Below are positions 1-12,102 of a stretch of DNA of 63,572 nucleotides, piece by piece. This DNA is from Flavobacterium sp. UBA5153. GTDB lineage: Bacteria; Bacteroidota; Bacteroidia; Flavobacteriales; Flavobacteriaceae. Numbering within the stretch: position 1 is the first letter of the stretch; the number at the start of each line of letters is the position of its first letter. Location: the NCBI GenBank assembly GCA_002413745.1, contig DHXP01000049.1:1-63572 (forward strand), read 5' to 3'. Under the pieces are notes generated by a model. It did no database searches. It saw only the letters and a program-made list of their open reading frames with translations, and had not been told where the DNA came from. Made by a program: the position numbers and the translations under genes.

Positions 1-413
1 CTCGTTGCCACAAGTACTATGACCTCGGCTGACTTCTTCACTTAACCACACGTGGTTGTGAAGACCTCCCCTGGTAAAAGCTTTTTCCTTTGTCCAATCC
101 CTGCGGCATCTACTGAAATACGATTTTGGTAATCTTCGGACGTTGCAATGGTGTGCTTGCTTATCCTCGTATATCAGCCTCTTATGCCGTTTCTGTTCGT
201 CAGTACCGGACTTTGTCGTTTCGCTTCCTTCAGTTCCCACCTCACGATTGACAACCTTGCGACGTACTAATGATTCGGGTTTTCAATCCGCTCATAAGGG
301 ACTTGCACCCTCTGGAAAAATAACACTCCATAAGTTGGATTCTTAATCCGAAATTTGTATTTTCGAATTTTTCTTCGAGCTTACAGAGTGTGTCCTGCTT
401 ATGCAGGGCACAC
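1..413 (-). mobile_element. Group IIC intron, 5' part (domains I-III), truncated by the window edge
   Basis: Read on the minus strand, the intron begins GTGTGCCCTGCAT at 413. It then carries the blocks GGTGCAAGTCCC, GGGAACTGAAGGAAGC, GACGAACAGAAAC, ACCAGGGGAGGTCT and GAAGTCAGCCGAGGTCATAG in the order of the Oceanobacillus-type group IIC intron as I remember it. The last block lies where domain III ends and domain IV begins, so the reverse transcriptase/maturase gene should lie left of base 1. Its 5' exon is the attC-like repeat at 414-541. An intact copy of that repeat at 3549 shows insertion between GT and T of the core GTTAGCC. The exact first base could be 413 or 415. The intron runs opposite to the cassette genes, as known for group IIC-attC introns. 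Subclass is inferred; the 3' end is not visible. Confidence 0.82.
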
Positions 414-541
414 ACCGTCGTTTGGCAATATGGCGGGATTAGGCTTAATTTAAAGATGGTTTTGTACTTGGAAAATTAGTCATTAACCGAAAGTTAAGGC
501 TTCCTTAATCCGCCACATCGCCAAGCGGCCAAACGTTGTGC
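414..541 (+). repeat. attC-like repeat copy 1, split by the group IIC intron
   Basis: This copy is about 97% identical to copy 3 over some 120 bases. Its arms are imperfect inverted repeats: CGTTTGGC and TGGCGG on the left, CCGCCA and GCCAAACG on the right. It ends in GTTGTGC (535-541), close to the attC core consensus GTTRRRY. The outer left core box is missing because the intron occupies that point. The overall plan (outer core boxes, asymmetric stem, variable middle of about 80 bases) resembles integron attC sites. Function in recombination is inferred. Confidence 0.65.
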
Positions 542-578
542 GACACCCTAAAAACCTAACCAATTAAAAAACAACAAT

Positions 579-650
579 ATGAATAAAATAATTAAAGTGT
601 TAATTTTAATGCTCCCGTGTTTAATTTTTGCTCAAAGTGATTTAGAATAA
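579..650 (+). pseudogene. Signal-peptide remnant (23 aa)
   Basis: An ATG at 579 opens a 23-residue reading frame, too short to be picked up by usual gene length cut-offs. It encodes MNKIIKVLILMLPCLIFAQS followed by three residues and a stop: a complete Sec-type signal peptide (basic start, hydrophobic core, Ala-Gln cleavage motif usual in flavobacteria) with no mature protein. The degenerate attC-like repeat starts two bases after the stop. It may be a secreted-protein cassette truncated by recombination at the repeat, or a very small cassette. It lies in the 392-base gap before the next gene, which otherwise holds only the repeat. Confidence 0.4.
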
Positions 651-651
651 T

Positions 652-775
652 AACTAACTTCAACAGCAGTTTGGCATCAATGGCGTGGTTTGGGCTTATT
701 TCAAAGTTGTTTTTGTAATTGCAAAGCACAATTTAGGATTCTTAATGCAACCTACTTTAATAAATCACGTTTAGC
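652..775 (+). repeat. attC-like repeat copy 2 (degenerate)
   Basis: The left half (TTTGGCATCAATGGCGTGG, then GGGCTTATTTCAAAG and TTTTTGTAATTG) aligns with the left half of copies 1 and 3. The right half has diverged. Outer boxes are AACTAAC at 652-658 and GTTTAGC at 769-775, each one mismatch from the attC core consensus. The length of 124 bases matches the other copies. Base pairing between arms is weak, so the site may be inactive. Confidence 0.42.
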
Positions 776-933
776 ACAACTCAAAATATATAGCAACCAA
801 TAATATAAAATCAAACTGAAATATGAAAACATCTTATATTAAGACAAAATCATATTAATAAATTTGAACAAGAAAAATAAAATTTTTATTATCTAACCCT
901 CACTTAATTTTAAGTGAATTAAATTACAACGTT

Positions 934-1410
934 ATGATTACTTTTACAATTATTGCAATAGTTGTTATCATTATTATTAAATTCTTAATGTATAGCTCCA
1001 AACCAGAAAATCAAATCGAAGCAAATGATATCAGAAAGAAATTTAAGCCTTTTATTGATACAATTATTAATAGTTACATGCAAAACAATGTATCGTGTTC
1101 AGTAGAAGATATTGATGATGATAAAAGATGTGTTGTAATTCAAACCGACAAATTATCTATTAACGATGATAAAATTACTCATTTTATTTATTTTATGAAT
1201 GATTCTTTTAAGATAGAAATAATATATAAGATTTTTTCATTAAAGTTTAATAAAATTTATACGTATAAAGTTTCGGAAATGGATGGACAACGACAAATAA
1301 ATGAAGCTAAAGATATTTTAAGAAACTTCACTCATTTGAAGTTGCAGTTTGAAAAAGATAATGAAGTAACAATAATTGAAGAAATTATTGATAAAAATTT
1401 ATATAATTGA
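934..1410 (+). CDS. Hypothetical membrane-anchored protein (158 aa)
   Basis: I do not recognise this protein. A single hydrophobic segment covers residues 1-20, so it is probably held in the inner membrane with about 135 hydrophilic residues on one side. The rest is rich in Lys, Asp and Ile with mixed helix and strand character and no obvious catalytic motif. It is the first of five plus-strand orphan genes between attC-like repeats 2 and 3, and its base composition is markedly more AT-rich than the chromosomal genes after 4113. No TAnnTTTG promoter is evident upstream. It is plausibly a cassette gene, but its function is unknown. Confidence 0.6.
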   Translation: MITFTIIAIVVIIIIKFLMYSSKPENQIEANDIRKKFKPFIDTIINSYMQNNVSCSVEDIDDDKRCVVIQTDKLSINDDKITHFIYFMNDSFKIEIIYKIFSLKFNKIYTYKVSEMDGQRQINEAKDILRNFTHLKLQFEKDNEVTIIEEIIDKNLYN

Positions 1411-1502
1411 TTTTTATTACGAATTATTATACTAATATGATCTCATTATTAGAGAATTTTAAAGAAACCATAAAATAAATAACATCGCATAATAGCTAAA
1501 AT

Positions 1503-1979
1503 ATGGAAAAAAATAATCAAAAAATTGCTCACACAACTTGGTGGATTTTCTCAATTATTGGTATTATTATTGGCTTAATTAATTCTGATAGTAGTTATAG
1601 AGATAGTCAACCAATAGCTTATGCGCTTATGGGATTAGTAAATGGTGCTTTAATTGGTTGGTTTTTTGGTTACGTCATTGATCAAATTAAAAATTCATCT
1701 ACAGTTCAACACATTTCAAAAAAAATTGAAGAAGATAAAGAAAATAAAACAATAATTGAAAATGCAAAATCATCATTAGCAAAATATAACGATGCAAAAC
1801 ATAGGTTTCAATATTTATCTAATGAAACATTAATTCATAAATATCAAACATCAGATATAGATAATTGCGACAATATGGAACAATTAGCTTTAGAAGAAGA
1901 ACTCGTAAAGAGAAATATATTAAATCATTCTCCAATGCATGAAAAAATGGAGAAAATAAATAATTATTTAAAATCATAA
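1503..1979 (+). CDS. Hypothetical two-helix membrane protein (158 aa)
   Basis: Not recognised. Two predicted membrane helices (about residues 11-28 and 38-62, the second Gly-rich) form a hairpin at the N-terminus, followed by a charged, helical, probably coiled-coil cytoplasmic tail rich in Lys, Glu and Asn. It ends four bases before the next start codon, so the two genes are probably translated from one message. AT-rich like its neighbours in the cassette-like region. No enzymatic motif is visible. Confidence 0.6.
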   Translation: MEKNNQKIAHTTWWIFSIIGIIIGLINSDSSYRDSQPIAYALMGLVNGALIGWFFGYVIDQIKNSSTVQHISKKIEEDKENKTIIENAKSSLAKYNDAKHRFQYLSNETLIHKYQTSDIDNCDNMEQLALEEELVKRNILNHSPMHEKMEKINNYLKS

Positions 1980-1982
1980 AAC

Positions 1983-2372
1983 ATGGGATTTACTATTATA
2001 CCAATATGTAAAAAATGTGGTTACAAAACAGAATCGATTTCTGTAGGAGGTGGCAGATTAAATCATTTAACACATTTTGGAGCACCTGCTTGGAATATTA
2101 TTACAAACAACGTAGAGCAAATTAATCTATATGCTGAAATCAAAAAAGTAAAAATAAAACAGCAATATCTTTTTTTCTTTCATCGCAATATAGAAATTGA
2201 AAAGATTAATGAAATATATGTTCCATATTATGAGTCTAAGATGTTCATTAAGGATGAGAATATCGGTACTCATAGTTGGAGCGGTAAATATTTTAAAAAA
2301 AGTAAAAACTTTTGTCCCAAATGCAAAACATTTAATTTAGATTTTTTAGATGGAGGAATTATGTTCGATTAA
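1983..2372 (+). CDS. Hypothetical zinc-ribbon protein (129 aa)
   Basis: Two Cys pairs, C9-x2-C12 and C111-x2-C114, lie near the two ends of the protein and would together make one split zinc ribbon, with about 100 residues inserted between the knuckles. A Gly-Gly-Gly turn follows the first pair. No DNA-binding or catalytic motif is evident in the insert. It starts four bases after the two-helix membrane protein, suggesting a joint message. The function is unknown; zinc binding is inferred from Cys spacing alone. Confidence 0.6.
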   Translation: MGFTIIPICKKCGYKTESISVGGGRLNHLTHFGAPAWNIITNNVEQINLYAEIKKVKIKQQYLFFFHRNIEIEKINEIYVPYYESKMFIKDENIGTHSWSGKYFKKSKNFCPKCKTFNLDFLDGGIMFD

Positions 2373-2507
2373 TTTTTTCTGATATATCACAATTTTATAA
2401 AATACAACTACACTTCTTAAGAAAATAAAACTTGATAATATTATGAGTCAAAAGGACATATATAGTATCATATTAATAAGAAAACACAATCCATAATTAT
2501 TTAAAAT

Positions 2508-3119
2508 ATGAATATAATTAAAGATATATTAAACGAGGATTTAATAATTGAAACAGAAAGATTAAAAATATATCCCTTCAAAATTAATCTTAAAACAGCG
2601 CAGGATTTATTCGAGATCTACAGTAAATCTACCAATGTTGAAAATTATTGTGATGTGTTTACTGATTTTCGAGAATTTTGCATACATCAGAGCAAAAGAA
2701 TAAAAACATTTCAAAATCTTGACAACGGTATCATAATGTTTATAATTGAGTTAAAAGAAAATTCAAAAGCTATAGGATTGAGAAATATAATATTAGATGG
2801 TGCTTATACAATGAATGGACAGGTAGAAATTAACAATGAAAATTTGATAACCGAAATATTAATAAGTGAAGATTATTGGAGGAATGGAATAGCATTCGAA
2901 GCATCAATAGCAATCTTTAAACTATTAAAAGTTAAAGGCGTTAAAAATGTATTGTCAGTTGTAGACTATAATAATACAAAAGCAAACTATTTAGACAGAA
3001 AACTTGGATTTCAAATTATAAATTATGATCAAGCTATAAATCAATTTTATTACCACAAAGATTTTGTTATTCATTCAACAAATATTAAACATAGTAATAT
3101 ATTATTGAAATCTCTATAA
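2508..3119 (+). CDS. GNAT-family N-acetyltransferase (203 aa)
   Basis: The protein opens like the RimJ/RimL branch of GNAT enzymes (IIETERLKIYPF). Around residues 105-170 it has the acetyl-CoA-binding core: strand ITEILIS, then YWRNGIAFEAS in place of the classical Q/RxxGxG/A loop, and the closing NTKANYLDRKLGF motif in which Asn and Leu-Gly-Phe are typical. It would transfer an acetyl group to an amine; the substrate cannot be read from the sequence. GNATs are among the commonest recognisable integron cassette genes, which suits its place between attC-like repeats. The final 30 residues are unassigned. An eight-base gap links it to the next gene. Confidence 0.8.
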   Translation: MNIIKDILNEDLIIETERLKIYPFKINLKTAQDLFEIYSKSTNVENYCDVFTDFREFCIHQSKRIKTFQNLDNGIIMFIIELKENSKAIGLRNIILDGAYTMNGQVEINNENLITEILISEDYWRNGIAFEASIAIFKLLKVKGVKNVLSVVDYNNTKANYLDRKLGFQIINYDQAINQFYYHKDFVIHSTNIKHSNILLKSL

Positions 3120-3126
3120 TTTTAAT

Positions 3127-3516
3127 ATGAAATTAATTAAGATAGAAAATTGTAAACCAGGTTATATTCTTAAAGGAATTACAAATCATAAAAACCGAGG
3201 ACACTATATGGTATTTATTAAAGAATACTATTTTCCTGATTTTATAGCAGTAATGATTTCGACTAAAAACGTTGAGAATAAAAATATTTTAATGTCTGAA
3301 AACCATTTTGAAAAAAAATTTGATGATAATGAAAATTGTAAAGTAATCTTCAAAAACTCTCATCTTGTTCCTGCTATACTTCATAAATATTTTGAAATGG
3401 GACCATTTGAGTTATGCGGAATTTTAACAGAAGATGGAATAAATTTTGTTTCTGAAAACATAGAAAATCTTGATATTGAAAGTTGGTCTGCATATCTTCA
3501 TAGAACGAATTATTAG
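3127..3516 (+). CDS. Hypothetical protein (129 aa), last gene before attC-like repeat 3
   Basis: Not recognised with confidence. The early part (GYILKGITNHKNRGHYMVFI, then strands ending in MISTKN) looks like a small beta-barrel and faintly recalls PemK/MazF-type proteins, but the usual conserved residues are not convincing. There are no membrane segments or signal peptide. It begins seven bases after the acetyltransferase stop and ends 33 bases before the repeat, the position expected for a cassette gene relative to its attC. AT-rich. No function is assigned. Confidence 0.55.
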   Translation: MKLIKIENCKPGYILKGITNHKNRGHYMVFIKEYYFPDFIAVMISTKNVENKNILMSENHFEKKFDDNENCKVIFKNSHLVPAILHKYFEMGPFELCGILTEDGINFVSENIENLDIESWSAYLHRTNY

Positions 3517-3548
3517 TAACACTCAACATTGAATAAAAAAAACCGAAC

Positions 3549-3682
3549 GGCTAACCGTCGTTTGGCAATATGGCGGGTTTTAGGCTTAATTTAAAGATGG
3601 TTTTGTGCTTGGAAAATTAGTCATTAACCGAAAGTTAAGGCTTCCTTAATCCGCCACATCGCCAAGCGGCCAAACGTTATCC
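3549..3682 (+). repeat. attC-like repeat copy 3 (intact)
   Basis: This is the complete 134-base copy. Outer boxes are GGCTAAC (3549-3555) and GTTATCC (3676-3682), which are nearly complementary and flank an asymmetric imperfect inverted repeat: GTTTGGC and TGGCGG pair across the site, with a 9-base excess on the right arm. Asymmetry of this type marks real attC sites, where unpaired bases choose the strand used. It follows the cassette-like genes and marks the right end of the accessory region. Confidence 0.65.
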
Positions 3683-4112
3683 CAAAAAAAGTATTTATGG
3701 CTACTCGCCATTTTTTTTGAATACTATTCTATTCAAAATCCCTACCAGAATAAACTTAATCCAGAAAAATAAATTCATTCACGAAAAAACAAAATAGTGA
3801 GGATTTGCAATCCATTCCTACAAACACGAATAAATAAGCCATTCTTAACGAGTGGTTTTTCATTTAAAACACATTCATCTTCAGCAGGAAATACAGTTAT
3901 TTATCAGGATTCTAGCCCTGATAGCAGCGGCATCCTTTTTTGTTCGCCATTTTCGGCGAACAAAAAAGATACAGCGGATAGCAGGAAATAGCTCCCAAAA
4001 AAAACACTTTCACACATAAAATGACTATAAATAAGGGATTTATTTTGAATTTTGAAGCACCTTCACTATCTTTCGCATTCGAAAAAAAATTGAACCCTTA
4101 CACATTGAAAAA
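3683..4112. other. Non-coding stretch right of the cassette-like region
   Basis: About 430 bases carry no convincing gene. A 64-codon frame at 3797-3991 crosses the hairpin repeat and has no family features. The stretch contains the 14-bp hairpin repeat described separately. It separates the accessory region from the first conserved chromosomal gene. Confidence 0.6.
3914..3996. repeat. Dispersed hairpin repeat, AGCCCYGATAGC family, copy 1
   Basis: A perfect 14-bp inverted repeat (CTTTTTTGTTCGCC at 3935-3948, complement at 3955-3968, 6-base loop) is nested in outer arms AGCCCTGATAGCAGCGG and CAGCGGATAGCAGGA that themselves pair imperfectly. The same frame AGCCCYGATAGCA...GAATAGCGGGA surrounds a different central hairpin at 57043. 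Conserved ends around a variable hairpin suggest a small dispersed element. Confidence 0.7.
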
Positions 4113-6344
4113 ATGTTAGAAGAAAAGACTGATAACCTGCTTGAAGCAGATGGAAATTTAGCAAACAATTCGCTTGAAATGATCCAAATCGAAACAGAAA
4201 TTTTAGAAGAAGCCGAAACAGTTGAACCTAGCGACAGCGAAATTTCCGTAGAAATGGCCGAAACTGTCGAGACGGTTTCTGATGAAGACTCAAGCGATAG
4301 CGAACAGGCGAAGCAATTGACAGAAACCGAAGCTACTATTGAACCCAAAAATCAAACCCCAGTAGATTCTGAAACTCCTGTTTTGGAAGAAATTGAAATA
4401 GTTGAATCAAGCAGTAGCGAAATAGCCGAGCTAGCAGAAGAGAATAATGCAACACTCACCGATGGAGACCCGAGCGATAGCGAACAGGCGAAGCAATTGG
4501 CAGAGGCCGATACTCTGGTTGAAACCAAAAATAAAACCGCAATAGACGCCATTGCCGACACCAATGCCGAGGAAAGCGAAGACGAAACCCTAAAAAATCG
4601 TCACGATATCCCGATGCTGGATTACGACACCTTGTCTTTGGAATCACTTGTGGACGAATTGAAAAATTTGGTCACCAATGAAAAAGTGATGTCGATAAAG
4701 GATCACGTAGAAGAAATTAAAAAGTCATTTTTGGCAAAATATTATCATCTTTTAGAAGAGAAAAAAGAAGAATTTATTGCCGAAAATCCAGACACAACCG
4801 AAGAATTTCAGTATCATTCTCCGTTAAAAACTAAGTTTGACCAATATTACTCCTTGTTCAGGGATAATAAAAATACACATTTCAAAAGTTTGCAAACCAA
4901 TCTGAAATCAAATTTGGAAAACAGATTGTCAATTGTCGAGGAATTGAAAGAGCTAATCAATCCGCAGGAAAACATCAAAGATACCTTAAAACATTTCAAT
5001 GATTTAAGGGAGCGATGGAAAAATGCGGGGCCAATTCCAAAAGACAAATACAATCACGTTTGGAACAATTATCATTTTCATGTAGAAAACTTCTATGATT
5101 ATTTACACTTGGACAGAGAGGCTCGAGACCTTGATTTTAAACACAATTTAGAGCAAAAACAAAAAATTGTGGCACGTGTCGAAGAATTAGTCAATGAAGC
5201 TGATATAAACAAAGCCTTTAGAGAATTACAAGATTTACATAAAATCTGGAAAGAGGATATCGGTCCTGTTTCAAGAGAACATCGTGACGAGATATGGAAT
5301 AAGTTTAGCGATTTGACTAAACAAATGCACGACAAACGCGAAGTTTTGTTTGAAAATTTAAGAGGAACCGAACTTGAAAATTTAGAAAAGAAAAGAGAAA
5401 TTGTCGCCAAAATTGAAGTCTTGGCAACCGAAAAAGTAAATGCCCATTCACAGTGGTTGGGTCAAATAGAAAAAGTGGAAGCTTTGCGAACTGCTTTTTT
5501 CTCTGCCGGAAAAGTCCCGTCAGAGGTTAATGAGGAAACTTGGACTGCTTTTAAAACTGCCGTAAGGAATTTTAATTCTTTTAAAAATTCATTTTATAAA
5601 GACATTAAAAAAGATCAAAACGACAATTTAAACAAAAAAAAGGCTCTCGTTGCCAAAGCAAAAGAATTGCAGGAAAGTCTAGATTTTGCGGCCACTACTC
5701 CCATAATGAAGAAAATTCAAGAGGAGTGGAAACAAATTGGCCACGTTCCAAGAAAATATTCGGATAAAATATGGGCAGAATTTAAGGAGGCTTGCAATCA
5801 TTATTTTGACAAATTAAAAGAGCAAAAAAGCGAGGAAAACGGTGAGGAAGTGGAAGCTTTCGATAAAAAGAAAGCCTATTTGGAAACCCTGAGAGAATTT
5901 CAGTTAACTGGCGACCATAAAACCGACTTGGATGCCATAAAATCACATATCGAAACCTGGAAAAACTTTGGAAGAGTCCCTTTTCCCAGAAGACATATCG
6001 AAGGCAAGTTTAATAAAGTTCTCGATGCCCTGTTCGAAAAATTAAGCTTGAGCAAAAAAGACAGTGAAATGATGCGTTTTTCCAACAGAATGGATAATTT
6101 ATCAGAAAATAATGATACCAGAAAACTGGAAAACGAAAAGATTTTCTTGATGCGCAAAATTGATGAAATCAAGAATGAAATTTTTCAATTGGAAAATAAT
6201 ATCCAGTTTTTTGCCAATACCAGAAATGCAAAAAAGGAAAATTCCATAGTCTTGGAAGTCCGCAAAAACATCGAAAAACACAAAGAGGAAATGGAGATTC
6301 TAAAAGACAAACTAAAACAAGTCAGAAGTTTGAATCAAGCATAA
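4113..6344 (+). CDS. DUF349 domain protein (743 aa)
   Basis: A cytoplasmic, almost wholly helical protein. Residues 1-165 are very acidic (Glu, Ser, Thr, Asp) and probably disordered. From about residue 235 onward come four or more DUF349 modules, recognised by the repeating W-K-x-x-G-x-x-P...W-x-x-F pattern (RERWKNAGPIP, KIWKEDIGPVS, EEWKQIGHVP, ETWKNFGRVP). The end (after residue 670) is a coiled coil. DUF349 proteins are widespread in Bacteroidota; the exact role is not established. The acidic region holds a roughly 60-residue tandem duplication, and each half carries the mini-element peptide D-P/S-SDSEQAKQ (residues 59-68 and 119-128). A terminator follows. Confidence 0.85.
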   Translation: MLEEKTDNLLEADGNLANNSLEMIQIETEILEEAETVEPSDSEISVEMAETVETVSDEDSSDSEQAKQLTETEATIEPKNQTPVDSETPVLEEIEIVESSSSEIAELAEENNATLTDGDPSDSEQAKQLAEADTLVETKNKTAIDAIADTNAEESEDETLKNRHDIPMLDYDTLSLESLVDELKNLVTNEKVMSIKDHVEEIKKSFLAKYYHLLEEKKEEFIAENPDTTEEFQYHSPLKTKFDQYYSLFRDNKNTHFKSLQTNLKSNLENRLSIVEELKELINPQENIKDTLKHFNDLRERWKNAGPIPKDKYNHVWNNYHFHVENFYDYLHLDREARDLDFKHNLEQKQKIVARVEELVNEADINKAFRELQDLHKIWKEDIGPVSREHRDEIWNKFSDLTKQMHDKREVLFENLRGTELENLEKKREIVAKIEVLATEKVNAHSQWLGQIEKVEALRTAFFSAGKVPSEVNEETWTAFKTAVRNFNSFKNSFYKDIKKDQNDNLNKKKALVAKAKELQESLDFAATTPIMKKIQEEWKQIGHVPRKYSDKIWAEFKEACNHYFDKLKEQKSEENGEEVEAFDKKKAYLETLREFQLTGDHKTDLDAIKSHIETWKNFGRVPFPRRHIEGKFNKVLDALFEKLSLSKKDSEMMRFSNRMDNLSENNDTRKLENEKIFLMRKIDEIKNEIFQLENNIQFFANTRNAKKENSIVLEVRKNIEKHKEEMEILKDKLKQVRSLNQA
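4287..4316 (+). repeat. In-frame mini-element copy E1, inside the DUF349 gene
   Basis: Thirty bases read in frame as DSSDSEQAKQ. The 3' half (GCGAACAGGCGAAGCAA) is identical to copies E2 and E3 and close to E4. It lies in the first half of a 180-base tandem duplication, so it and E2 may descend from one insertion. Confidence 0.65.
4467..4496 (+). repeat. In-frame mini-element copy E2, inside the DUF349 gene
   Basis: Thirty bases (GACCCGAG, short GCGATAGC hairpin, GAACAGGCGAAGCAA) read in frame as DPSDSEQAKQ, exactly 180 bases after E1. Shared ends with E3 and E4, which lie in unrelated surroundings, show that this is a dispersed element and not merely gene-internal repetition. Confidence 0.68.
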
Positions 6345-9636: not shown

Positions 9637-11055
9637 TTAATCAAAACTTTGTGGACTTAAAAAACTGGTTTGGCTGGTTTCAATTTTTTTATTCCCATCG
9701 TAAACTTCAATTTTTAGCTTCGTTTTGTCGCTTTCCAATAAATTCTGGTTGATTTCTATAAATATGGTTCCGCTTTTCATCCCCTGTTTTGGCACTTTTA
9801 AATCTTGCTGACCAACTACTTTTAGGGTTCCTTTTATCCCAACCAATTTGAAATGAATATCATCAAAATCATTATTGGTTTTATTAATAATTTTAAAAGT
9901 ATAGATGTTGCTGATATTATCGCCTTTATGTTGAAATAATTGCCCCGGCAATCTCAAAAAGGTGGCTTCTACTTCGGTACGTAAAAATAATAATCCAATC
10001 AATATTCCAACAAGAATAAACAATACGGCACTATAACCTTTCATTCTAGCCGTAAATTTGAATTTGGATTTTTTTTCAATTTCATCTTCAGATGCATATC
10101 GAATTAGTCCTTTAGGCAATCCAACGCCTTCCATTATGGCATCACATTCATCAATACAGGCGGTACAATTAATACATTCCAGCTGAGTTCCATTGCGGAT
10201 GTCAATTCCCGTTGGGCAAACGTTTACACATTGTTTACAATCGATACAATCGCCTTTTCCGGATGAGGCCCTATCTTCTTGTTTGTTGAATTTAGCCCTT
10301 CCCAATTCCTTTTCTCCCCGAACAAAATCATAGGCAACATTAATAGATTTATCGTCCAATAAAACCCCTTGCAATCTTCCGTAAGGACAAGCAATGATAC
10401 AAACTTGCTCTCTAAACCAAGCGAAAATAAAATAGAAAACTCCAGTAAAAATAGACAATGAAATCAAGGTGCTAACGTGATTTTCAGGTCCTTCTTCAAT
10501 CATTCTGATTAATTCGTCACTTCCAATAAGATAAGCCAGAAATATATTTGCAATAAAAAATGAAATCAATAAAAAAACAAGCCACTTTATTGCTTTCTTT
10601 CTGATTTTTTCGGCATTCCATTCTTGTTTTTCCAATCGAATTTGGGCTCCACGATCGCCTTCAATCCAATATTCAATTCTTCGGAAAACCATTTCAAGGA
10701 ATATGGTTTGTGGACAAATCCATCCGCAAAATATTCGACCGAAAATTACTGTAAAAAGGATAATGAAAACTACGCCAACAATCATAAAAAGAACGAAGAG
10801 GTAGAAATCTTGTGGCCAAAACGGAAATCCAAAAATATTAAATCGACGTTCCAAAACGTTGAACATCATAAACTGATTGCCATTAATCTTTATAAAGGGA
10901 TTTGCAATAAGAATAATCAACAAGAAATAACTTACCCACTTCCTGTAGTCATAAAACCTACCAGAAGGTTTTTTTGGGAAAATAAACTTCCTATTTCCTG
11001 CTTCATCAATTGTCCCTATGGTATCCCTAAAAGCTTCGTCTGGAATTTTTGACAT
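9637..11055 (-). CDS. ccoG: cbb3 oxidase accessory protein CcoG (FixG), iron-sulfur membrane protein
   Basis: A 472-residue inner-membrane protein with about five helices, a bacterial-ferredoxin pair of [4Fe-4S] motifs (CIDCKQCVNVCPTG near residue 268, CINCTACIDECD near residue 293), and a C-terminal Ig-like periplasmic domain (IYTFKIINKTNNDFDDIHF). The motifs GRIFCGWICPQT and ACPYGRLQG are the FixG/NapH signatures. CcoG is thought to reduce copper for delivery to cbb3 oxidase. It follows ccoP, from which it is separated by an 18-bp perfect hairpin. Confidence 0.95.
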   Translation of the reverse strand: MSKIPDEAFRDTIGTIDEAGNRKFIFPKKPSGRFYDYRKWVSYFLLIILIANPFIKINGNQFMMFNVLERRFNIFGFPFWPQDFYLFVLFMIVGVVFIILFTVIFGRIFCGWICPQTIFLEMVFRRIEYWIEGDRGAQIRLEKQEWNAEKIRKKAIKWLVFLLISFFIANIFLAYLIGSDELIRMIEEGPENHVSTLISLSIFTGVFYFIFAWFREQVCIIACPYGRLQGVLLDDKSINVAYDFVRGEKELGRAKFNKQEDRASSGKGDCIDCKQCVNVCPTGIDIRNGTQLECINCTACIDECDAIMEGVGLPKGLIRYASEDEIEKKSKFKFTARMKGYSAVLFILVGILIGLLFLRTEVEATFLRLPGQLFQHKGDNISNIYTFKIINKTNNDFDDIHFKLVGIKGTLKVVGQQDLKVPKQGMKSGTIFIEINQNLLESDKTKLKIEVYDGNKKIETSQTSFLSPQSFD

Positions 11056-11085
11056 TTCTTTTGATTGTTATATTTTTTTAATCAT

Positions 11086-11124
11086 ATAATCTTTGTCAAA
11101 GTTATAAACTTTGACAAAGATTAT
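11086..11124 (-). repeat. 18-bp perfect hairpin between ccoP and ccoG
   Basis: ATAATCTTTGTCAAAGTT and its exact complement flank a 3-base loop. In the direction of transcription no T-run follows, so it is unlikely to be a simple terminator. It could protect the ccoP end or separate ccoNOQP from ccoGH expression by RNA processing. Confidence 0.75.
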
Positions 11125-11160
11125 GAAAGTATATCCATTATTTATATAATAAAATATTCA

Positions 11161-12102
11161 CTATTTTTTTACTGTGATGCTATCTGATTTCGCGGTAGCA
11201 GCACCAACTTTTGTAGGCGCACTTGGATCAACCCAGATTTCTCCTTCTGGTGCTTTTGGGTTCACTGGATTGCTTCCCTTCAATGACAAAACATAACTCG
11301 CGACAAGTTGAATGTCTTTTGGCTTCATTCCACTTTTTGACCAAGCAATCATACCTTTACCATCGCGACCACCATTTGTAATGGTGTGGAAAACATTTTT
11401 AATGCCACCCCCTAAAATCCAATTATCATCCGTTAAATTTGGACCTATCAAACCACCGGCATCAGGTCTGTGACAAGGAATACAATTTTTCATAAAAATT
11501 GATTTCCCAGCACCTAAATCAGCAGGACTAGTCAATAAAGTAACGGTTTTTTCATCCATTAAATCCGGAGCTGTTTTTTTGTATTCGGCAATAGCAATTT
11601 GAGCTTGAGCCATTTCTTTTTTCAATTCCGTTTCTTGGTTATCTCCTCCCATAACTTCAAATCGAACAAGATAAACTACTGCAAAAATAATACAACCATA
11701 GAACAAATAAACCCACCATGGTGGCAAACTGTTGTCTAATTCCTTGATGTCGTCATAATCATGATCCAATAATAATTGGCCTTCATTTTCAATTGGCTCT
11801 GATTTTGTCAAAGCTTTCATCAGTTTTTTGAACCATTGGCTTTCTTTATAACTAACAGTGCTAACTTCCTTTAGTTTTGCTTTTTGTTCTTCCGTAAGCA
11901 ATTGATAGGTAATAGTATCTACCGCACTAATAGTGATTTCAATCGCTATTAAAAGGAAAAGAAACACGAATAAAAAGAGGGAAACCATCGGGAATTTTAT
12001 AAAAGCGGGTTGGCTTCCAGAGTCAATAAAATATTCCATTGCACCAAAAACGGCGAAGAAAACAACAAGAACTCTTATGTATGCCGGGATTAATTTTTTC
12101 AT
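11161..12102 (-). CDS. ccoP: cbb3 cytochrome c oxidase subunit III, CcoP (mono-haem)
   Basis: A 313-residue membrane-anchored c-type cytochrome. Helices lie near residues 9-26, 36-57 and 128-146. Only one haem c motif, CIPCH (about residue 206), is present, with a likely Met ligand in GMIAWSKSGM; proteobacterial CcoP usually has two haems. The protein passes electrons to the CcoNO core. The C-terminus is a flexible Pro/Ala/Lys tail. The extra N-terminal helices are usual in Bacteroidota. It follows ccoQ after a 142-base gap that contains a palindromic PLERVG-type element. Confidence 0.93.
   Translation of the reverse strand: MKKLIPAYIRVLVVFFAVFGAMEYFIDSGSQPAFIKFPMVSLFLFVFLFLLIAIEITISAVDTITYQLLTEEQKAKLKEVSTVSYKESQWFKKLMKALTKSEPIENEGQLLLDHDYDDIKELDNSLPPWWVYLFYGCIIFAVVYLVRFEVMGGDNQETELKKEMAQAQIAIAEYKKTAPDLMDEKTVTLLTSPADLGAGKSIFMKNCIPCHRPDAGGLIGPNLTDDNWILGGGIKNVFHTITNGGRDGKGMIAWSKSGMKPKDIQLVASYVLSLKGSNPVNPKAPEGEIWVDPSAPTKVGAATAKSDSITVKK

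Follow-up and report, generated by a model that had tools for sequence, protein, structure and literature searches.

The window analysed here is the whole of contig DHXP01000049.1 of Flavobacterium sp. UBA5153 (assembly GCA_002413745.1), 63,572 nucleotides long. Its left end carries attC-type recombination sites, orphan genes and part of a group IIC intron, and very probably is the distal end of an array of integron cassettes, of a kind that, in relatives, is headed by a tyrosine recombinase other than IntI. The window is an entire contig (C68), with the contig start at window base 1, and the features at its left end are listed below (ORF, open reading frame; R'' and R', the two outer cores of a site; R1 and R2, the covariance models described further on).

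1..413, minus strand: 5' part of a group IIC intron (RF02001), truncated at the contig start; it starts GTGTGCCC at 413
414..541, plus strand: attC-type site 1, matched by R2; R'' core interrupted by the intron; R' (535-541) is GTTGTGC
579..650, plus strand: ORF of 23 codons in the short unit that separates site 1 from site 2, from reading the sequence
657..775, plus strand: decayed attC-type site 2 (R1 21.5 bits, E = 0.05), without an attC-like fold
934..1410, plus strand: orphan ORF, 158 aa, no Pfam match
1503..1979, plus strand: orphan ORF, 158 aa, Pfam matches below cut-off only
1983..2372, plus strand: orphan ORF, 129 aa, with CxxC pairs, no Pfam match above cut-off
2508..3119, plus strand: GNAT acetyltransferase, 203 aa (PF13302, 28 bits; cut-off 25.4)
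3127..3516, plus strand: orphan ORF, 129 aa, no Pfam match
3549..3682, plus strand: attC-type site 3, R'' GGCTAAC, R' GTTATCC, matched by R2

A preliminary description of this DNA had reported three related repeats, at 414, 652 and 3549. The first and third are attC-type sites, 96% and 99% alike over two ungapped stretches in the repeat finder, while the middle one is a relic only: it scores poorly with R2 as well (19.1 bits), no attC-like fold was seen for it (z +0.86), and its core, given as AACTAAC at 652, is more likely CTTCAAC at 658. Between the repeats lie five ORFs of 129-203 aa, all on the plus strand and one of them a GNAT, as described; for the other four there is no Pfam match above the family cut-off. 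The group IIC intron reported in a repeat core, opposite to the genes, was also recovered (RF02001 at 251-78, 125 bits), and its 5' end (413, minus strand) directly abuts the first repeat. The Rfam attC model had no match in the first 8 kb of the window, and site 3 is the final site observed on the right side of the array. On its own, the window gives two good sites, one relic and one intron, and the case depends on relatives.

Both good sites (414-541 and 3549-3682) have further copies elsewhere in the same genome. We aligned ten own-genome copies, two of them from the window, under a hand-written structure and found 80.8% of cells paired, against 33-48% with the partner slid, and changes on both sides in 13 of 23 pairs (0/500 shuffles). 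Four of five covariation measures were reached in 0/500 shuffles; the fifth, further pair types, was reached in 100/500. The covariance model R1, built from these ten copies, finds 23 own-genome places at E ≤ 0.1, ten seeds included, and has matches in 86 of 101 Flavobacterium genomes (own included) at E ≤ 0.001; the match at C64:53887 was excluded from the sites as weak (21.1 bits). The seeds of a second model, R2, were 107 R1 matches from named genomes (loci L149-L228); across the phylum, R2 has matches in 173 of 395 genomes. The covariance-model search that had been proposed as a check detects both good sites of the window (3549-3682 at 124.5 bits, E = 7.7e-30; 408-541 at 110.9 bits, E = 2.9e-26), and the suggestion of a separate attC family in an integron cassette array is borne out by evidence from relatives. 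Across 332 sites the cores follow RYYYAAC and GTTRRRY (AAC in 318, GTT in 313) with an asymmetric spacer, whose offset is 4 nt in 290 of 305 (27 of the 332 were dropped, having no core or stem). Folding of the bottom strand, the other proposed check, gave a divided answer: the fold is attC-like for copies on contigs C54, C29, C4, C61 and C51, but less clear in others. The good window sites have bottom-strand z values of -2.4 and -1.8, the top strand of 3549-3682 folds equally well (z -2.3), and the remaining sites range from +0.2 to -3.6, so that folding energy is modest evidence and does not on its own separate the sites.

In relatives, such sites form long arrays. One complete genome (G045) has 34 R1 sites over ~46 kb, on one strand throughout, in four fetched stretches with other inserts between them, and other Flavobacterium genomes display the same long one-strand pattern. 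In 230 units the longest ORF is on the array strand in 194 (opposite in 22; no ORF of 60 aa in 14), and the ORF stop lies a median of 11 bases before the site. When a cassette is circular its two ends become one site, so that the stretch preceding AAC in R'' should be complementary to the stretch that follows GTT where the same cassette starts. We measured this own-end complementarity in 219 cassettes, leaving aside 14 weak matches (164 found, 150 aligned), and obtained a mean of 6.19 of 7 bases, with 6 or 7 in 191 of the 219; the controls give 3.07 for the site as placed and 2.82 for random pairs, and 0/2000 shuffles reach 6.19. Judged from sequence, complementary own ends are the signature of circular integron cassettes. 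This feature of canonical integrons is present in the arrays and missing from both units of the window (w414-w652 and w652-w3549), where the search for a cassette start gave no match (6 and 7 of 10 bases) and shuffles do as well in 191/200 and 190/200. Because neither unit keeps matching ends, the array end in the window looks decayed or old.

These ends bear directly on the idea that the sites are dispersed members of a palindromic repeat or terminator family (REP or MITE-like) that takes no part in cassette recombination. Single copies are indeed scattered over the own genome, several of them without a matching unit start; yet seven scattered copies close units that begin at an attI-type place with a match in 9-10 of 10 bases, and such a family offers no reason for end complementarity across 219 cassettes. 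For the arrays the idea is refuted, and overall we give it next to no probability. The preliminary description held that copies at unrelated positions, with no linked gene changes, would count against an array: scattered recurrence was found, but eight of the copies begin at an attI-type site and are cassette units.

Duplicated cassettes in G045 comprise nine pairs from three cassette families, 95.7-99.9% identical. The identical stretch overshoots the cassette start by 2-9 bases in seven pairs and by 89 and 139 bases in the other two; at the cassette end the overshoot is 2-26 bases in every pair. A further pair, in F. saccharophilum, is 99.6% identical, with edges 4 and 3 bases outside. The search returned 45 rows, mostly neighbouring windows of one array or cassettes of genome G030 that share sites, and only these ten pairs were used. 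A function scan covered 100 of the 193 cassette ORFs. The cargo found includes a Cass2 protein, whose family takes its name from integrons, restriction enzymes (XhoI-like and type IIG), AbiU and GajA-like matches, and APH and further drug-modifying folds. The G045 array region also contains, against the cassettes, two like pairs (L099:5779-7652 and 9741-11614) of a tyrosine recombinase (PF00589) and a 371-aa ORF, presumably IS91-like, their likeness resting on the first 60 residues.

At the head of the G045 array stands a 347-residue tyrosine recombinase, read in the direction of the cassettes. Its best family match is NF040815 (XerA / 'integron integrase'; 230.8 bits), followed by IntI TIGR02249 (210.6 bits, below the cut-off of 265), XerD (193.6) and XerC; two relatives fall narrowly below the NF040815 cut-off (219.6 and 219.8 against 220). 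Residues R204, H294, R297, H320 and Y329, which we take to be the catalytic residues of a tyrosine recombinase, are invariant in 34 sequences. The predicted structure (mean pLDDT 81.4, pTM 0.51) comes closest to the solved folds of XerA and IntI, with TM-scores of 0.40-0.53. In the tree, IntI is separate from the array recombinases (100/100), but its two Xer rows are long branches, so that the relation to Xer in it is tentative. Relatives of the recombinase occur in 52 of the 101 genus genomes at E ≤ 1e-60, and among the matches listed (the best 80 in the scan of named genomes) they are carried by Flavobacterium, Frigoriflavimonas, Pelobium, Hufsiella, Algoriphagus and Bacteroidota metagenome-assembled genomes (MAGs).

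The sites keep a fixed relation to this gene. At 125 recombinase loci (a set with three or more duplicate pairs), R1 sites downstream of the gene number 203 on the same strand and 0 on the opposite one, and those upstream 1 and 2, respectively; at least one R1 site is present in 58 of the 72 loci with 1500 nt of room. A contig end lies within 1500 bases downstream of the gene in 53 of the 125 loci and upstream in 3, a bias that we would expect if repeats follow the gene. On plasmid NZ_CP041688.1 of Chryseobacterium sp. SNU WT5 (L270), the recombinase is accompanied by an attI match and five R2 sites, and the array contains a group II intron; the platform can therefore be plasmid-borne.

The array begins beside the recombinase, at an attI-type site, often palindromic, immediately 3' of the gene, and it is there that the cassettes start. 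Among 59 loci tested, 2 had no start and 3 were duplicates; in 43 of the 54 unique loci left, the first cassette starts 92-115 nt past the last aligned codon, many right after the palindrome. L241, L174 and L192 were dropped as misplaced, and 31 of the other 51, those with an attI of typical build, were aligned. Pairing in the palindrome is kept by covariation (72.8% of cells paired, against 35-42% with the partner slid; the figure is biased upward since only typical-build attI were aligned), and 127 double-change cells were counted against 53 in shuffles; two of the five measures are unremarkable (double-change pairs reached in 41/500 shuffles, further types in 204/500). The motif TATA.AC.AGTT is nearly invariant. 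A covariance model of attI (R3) finds places in 42 of 53 recombinase loci, many of which are its seeds; the non-seeds include Pelobium, a Saprospiraceae MAG and the Chryseobacterium plasmid. At 20 canonical IntI loci R3 found nothing convincing (one match, E = 0.58).

Two features separate this system from canonical IntI and its sites. The ~42-residue insertion that defines IntI is absent in 26/26 array recombinases and present in 12/12 canonical IntI; when aligned with the IntI structure of V. cholerae, where the alignment jumps from residue 181 to 246 of the 2A3V chain, 22 residues oppose 64, and the array recombinases lack the IntI-specific additional domain. Within that stretch of IntI, K209, Y210, W219, P232, H240 and H241 contact two extrahelical bases of attC, according to the accessible part of PMC3053210, and we therefore compared the sites for bulges. 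The comparison used a model-free search by the cassette-end rule, which reads alike on both strands, with the canonical strand set opposite to IntI; of 20 canonical loci from the same phylum, 12 supplied 40 sites, and of 136 flavobacterial-type loci, 37 supplied 89. A one-base bulge within the first 12 pairs is present in 39 of 40 canonical sites (38 on the 5' arm) but in only 18 of 89 flavobacterial-type sites (Fisher p = 6e-18), and the extrahelical base is thus missing from 71 of 89 of the latter against 1 of 40 canonical sites. In 13 of the 18 bulged flavobacterial sites, the bulge is at position 2 next to the spacer and looks like a single mismatch; these were kept in the count. Nor is the flavobacterial stem smooth, a T.G position (A.C on the bottom strand) lying ~five pairs in at 56 of 107 sites. 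The spacer offset is 4 in 28 of 40 canonical and 70 of 89 flavobacterial-type sites of these model-free sets. R2 has 17 matches in 7 canonical loci, all on the strand opposite IntI; the new recombinases read with their arrays.

The distribution of IntI bears on a second explanation, under which a textbook integron array lost its IntI gene and became a cluster of attC sites lacking integrase (CALIN) in the usual sense. The own genome has no IntI above cut-off, and IIC-attC introns do enter CALINs (accessible part of PMC7923331), as this explanation would have it. However, canonical IntI above cut-off was found in 0 of 101 genus genomes, in a search with no positive control of its own, and yet 86 of the 101 have R1 sites; the sites differ from canonical ones by the missing bulge, and another recombinase heads the arrays. 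In the phylum, the same IntI family does pass its cut-off in 105 of 395 genomes, and in 0 of the 49 of order Flavobacteriales. Within this order, R2 sites are present in 43 genomes and the recombinase (E ≤ 1e-80) in 30, every one of which also has sites. We regard loss of a textbook IntI as most improbable. The preliminary description had offered an integron cassette array or an attC cluster without integrase; the array stands, and the absence of integrase applies to canonical IntI but not to the system, whose arrays are headed by a recombinase of another kind.

Since the contig starts at window base 1, any left part of the array is on another contig. Contig C3 carries the recombinase, attI, two cassettes with 10/10 matching ends and a third matching in nine visible bases, and terminates inside the 3' end of an intron of the window's kind; from these features it is probably the left part of the window's array. 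The frame of its recombinase is lost late in the gene (L043:7460), after the HWLRHS motif, at a short palindromic insert containing GCCTGCCGGCAGGC; this 14-mer is absent from eight other own-genome stretches checked and from the window. Contig C64 has an intact recombinase, attI, one cassette with 10/10 matching ends and its site. By eye, the CxxC protein at window 1983-2372 resembles an ORF in a C3 cassette (L043:10829-11209). No locus with both AroE and DUF349 was found among those fetched. To the right of site 3, the window continues with a Flavo-1 RNA (RF01705, 79 bits; 3910-3992, shortly past the array end), a DUF349 protein, whose gene contains an 86-base direct repeat (81% alike, 4281-4546), and a radical-SAM HemN-like protein.

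R3 also finds eight attI-type places without a recombinase gene in this genome, at C4, C61, C59, C54, C19, C29 and C51 (two), in loci L037, L039, L059, L035, L060, L036, L041 and L061. The cassette start matches 9 or 10 of 10 bases at seven of them and nine visible bases at the eighth (C51:166774), and shuffled ends equal these matches in 0-15 of 200. The last 8-16 recombinase codons persist at five of the eight. They represent either remnants of earlier platforms or docking sites used in trans. At C59, the stretch resembles, by eye, a longer decayed remnant of the recombinase, and similar gene-less places occur in genomes G010, G036 and G015. Only loci with a site were scanned, so the platform count in the own genome is a lower bound. 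A matching unit start was not found at C31a, C31b, C34, C61:15895, C38, C27 and C28; an attI match at C34 (28.1 bits) was rejected because it has the wrong junction and because the site there lacks such a start.

The gene-less places bear on a third explanation: the sites might be recombined in trans, by XerCD or another enzyme, with the adjacent recombinase a mere passenger. Consistent with this, attI places exist without the gene, and some genomes (e.g. G010 and G036) have arrays with no recombinase match at E 1e-60. Against it, gene, attI and sites keep their order and direction in the Flavobacterium, Pelobium and Saprospiraceae MAG loci. To our knowledge, chromosomal Xer sites (dif) are not arrays, which also disfavours the explanation, and we consider it very unlikely.

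The intron offers a view of the sites from an independent element. Using the own introns as queries against the fetched loci, we found six introns with a visible 5' end (three in the own genome, two in G036, one on the Chryseobacterium plasmid), and in all six the intron begins, on the bottom strand, where an attC-type site has its R'' core. The accessible part of PMC7923331 describes group IIC-attC introns as inserting into TTGT/T of the attC bottom strand at R'', opposing the cassettes. The introns found here share with these a ribozyme in the R'' core of the bottom strand, directed against the cassettes, and differ in that the exon before the intron ends GGT or TGT. Because they target R'' as IIC-attC introns do, an independent element treats the sites as attC.

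Taken together, we put a probability of about 90% on the reading that this is a Bacteroidota integron lineage with a non-IntI integrase, and that the window would start inside the far end of one of its arrays. The reading is built on sequence: complementary cassette ends, the fold of the sites, the position of attI, gene order, the type of recombinase and intron targeting. Several observations weigh against it. Both units inside the window fail the cassette-end rule, and the join between C3 and the window is unproven, C31, which also ends in an intron half, being a competing partner. R1 sites are missing from 14 of 72 recombinase loci with room for them, and R2 sites are nonetheless present in 13 of the order's 19 genomes that have no recombinase at E 1e-80. 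The order of scores (XerA-like first, IntI second, XerD third) makes any family placement of the recombinase tentative, and 20 of the 51 attI stretches were excluded from the covariation analysis, some of them without a clear long stem.

In the proposed lineage, a cassette comprises a single gene or a small number of genes with an attC-type site behind, and the array recombinase would carry out cassette recombination, with the bottom strand as its presumed substrate. Strand choice may be made by the asymmetric central spacer, as the IntI insertion and most extrahelical bases are missing. Were C3 indeed the left part, the array would be headed by a broken recombinase; an intact copy is present on C64. 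A bolder version has about even chances: this would be a second Bacteroidota integron lineage, functioning with neither the IntI insertion nor extrahelical bases, in which the spacer alone sets the strand, the often palindromic attI perhaps also acts in folded form, and, within one genome, one intact recombinase serves several scattered platforms in trans.

It is instructive to compare this system with those already known. With IntI integrons (the Vibrio superintegron, class 1) it shares attI, tandem attC cassettes, RYYYAAC and GTTRRRY cores, complementary cassette ends, a mostly single gene direction and the 4-nt spacer offset; it differs in lacking the IntI insertion and mostly the extrahelical base, in a gene that reads toward attI, in an often palindromic attI, and in ~70 additional N-terminal residues of the recombinase. 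Archaeal XerA (5hxy, 4a8e) provides the nearest solved structures by sequence and fold; XerA acts on dif, not on cassettes. Like a CALIN, the window shows attC sites and orphan genes without IntI, but unlike a CALIN the system has a dedicated recombinase, of non-IntI type. Transcription of the integrase toward attI is described for the reverse integrons of Treponema in the accessible part of PMC3607928. The array recombinase resembles these in being read toward attI, in the cassette direction, but lacks the insertion. Treponema integrases are presumably of IntI type.

In the accessible part of PMC8138268, the IntI insertion is incompletely conserved in an 'integron-like' subgroup of tyrosine recombinases, but an insertion-less cassette array is not described there. 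The additional domain is treated as defining, unique to IntI and necessary for integron recombination in the accessible part of PMC9668308, and IntegronFinder requires it; an insertion-less lineage can therefore be overlooked. Taxon-specific attC models leave out Bacteroidota, as far as the accessible part of PMC8352920 goes. We found no literature on such arrays in Flavobacterium or Bacteroidetes, in a search that mostly did not cover subscription journals, so that novelty is unproven. The 2022 survey (PMC9024848, accessible part) states that Bacteroidetes earlier had only In0 and then one complete integron (Salinibacter).

Set beside that one complete integron in Bacteroidetes proper, sites of the present kind are common, occurring in 86 of 101 sampled genomes of the genus. 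They raise a testable question, namely how the strands of a folded site are discriminated without extrahelical bases, and they open a pool of cassette genes that includes restriction enzymes, abortive-infection proteins and drug-modifying enzyme folds.

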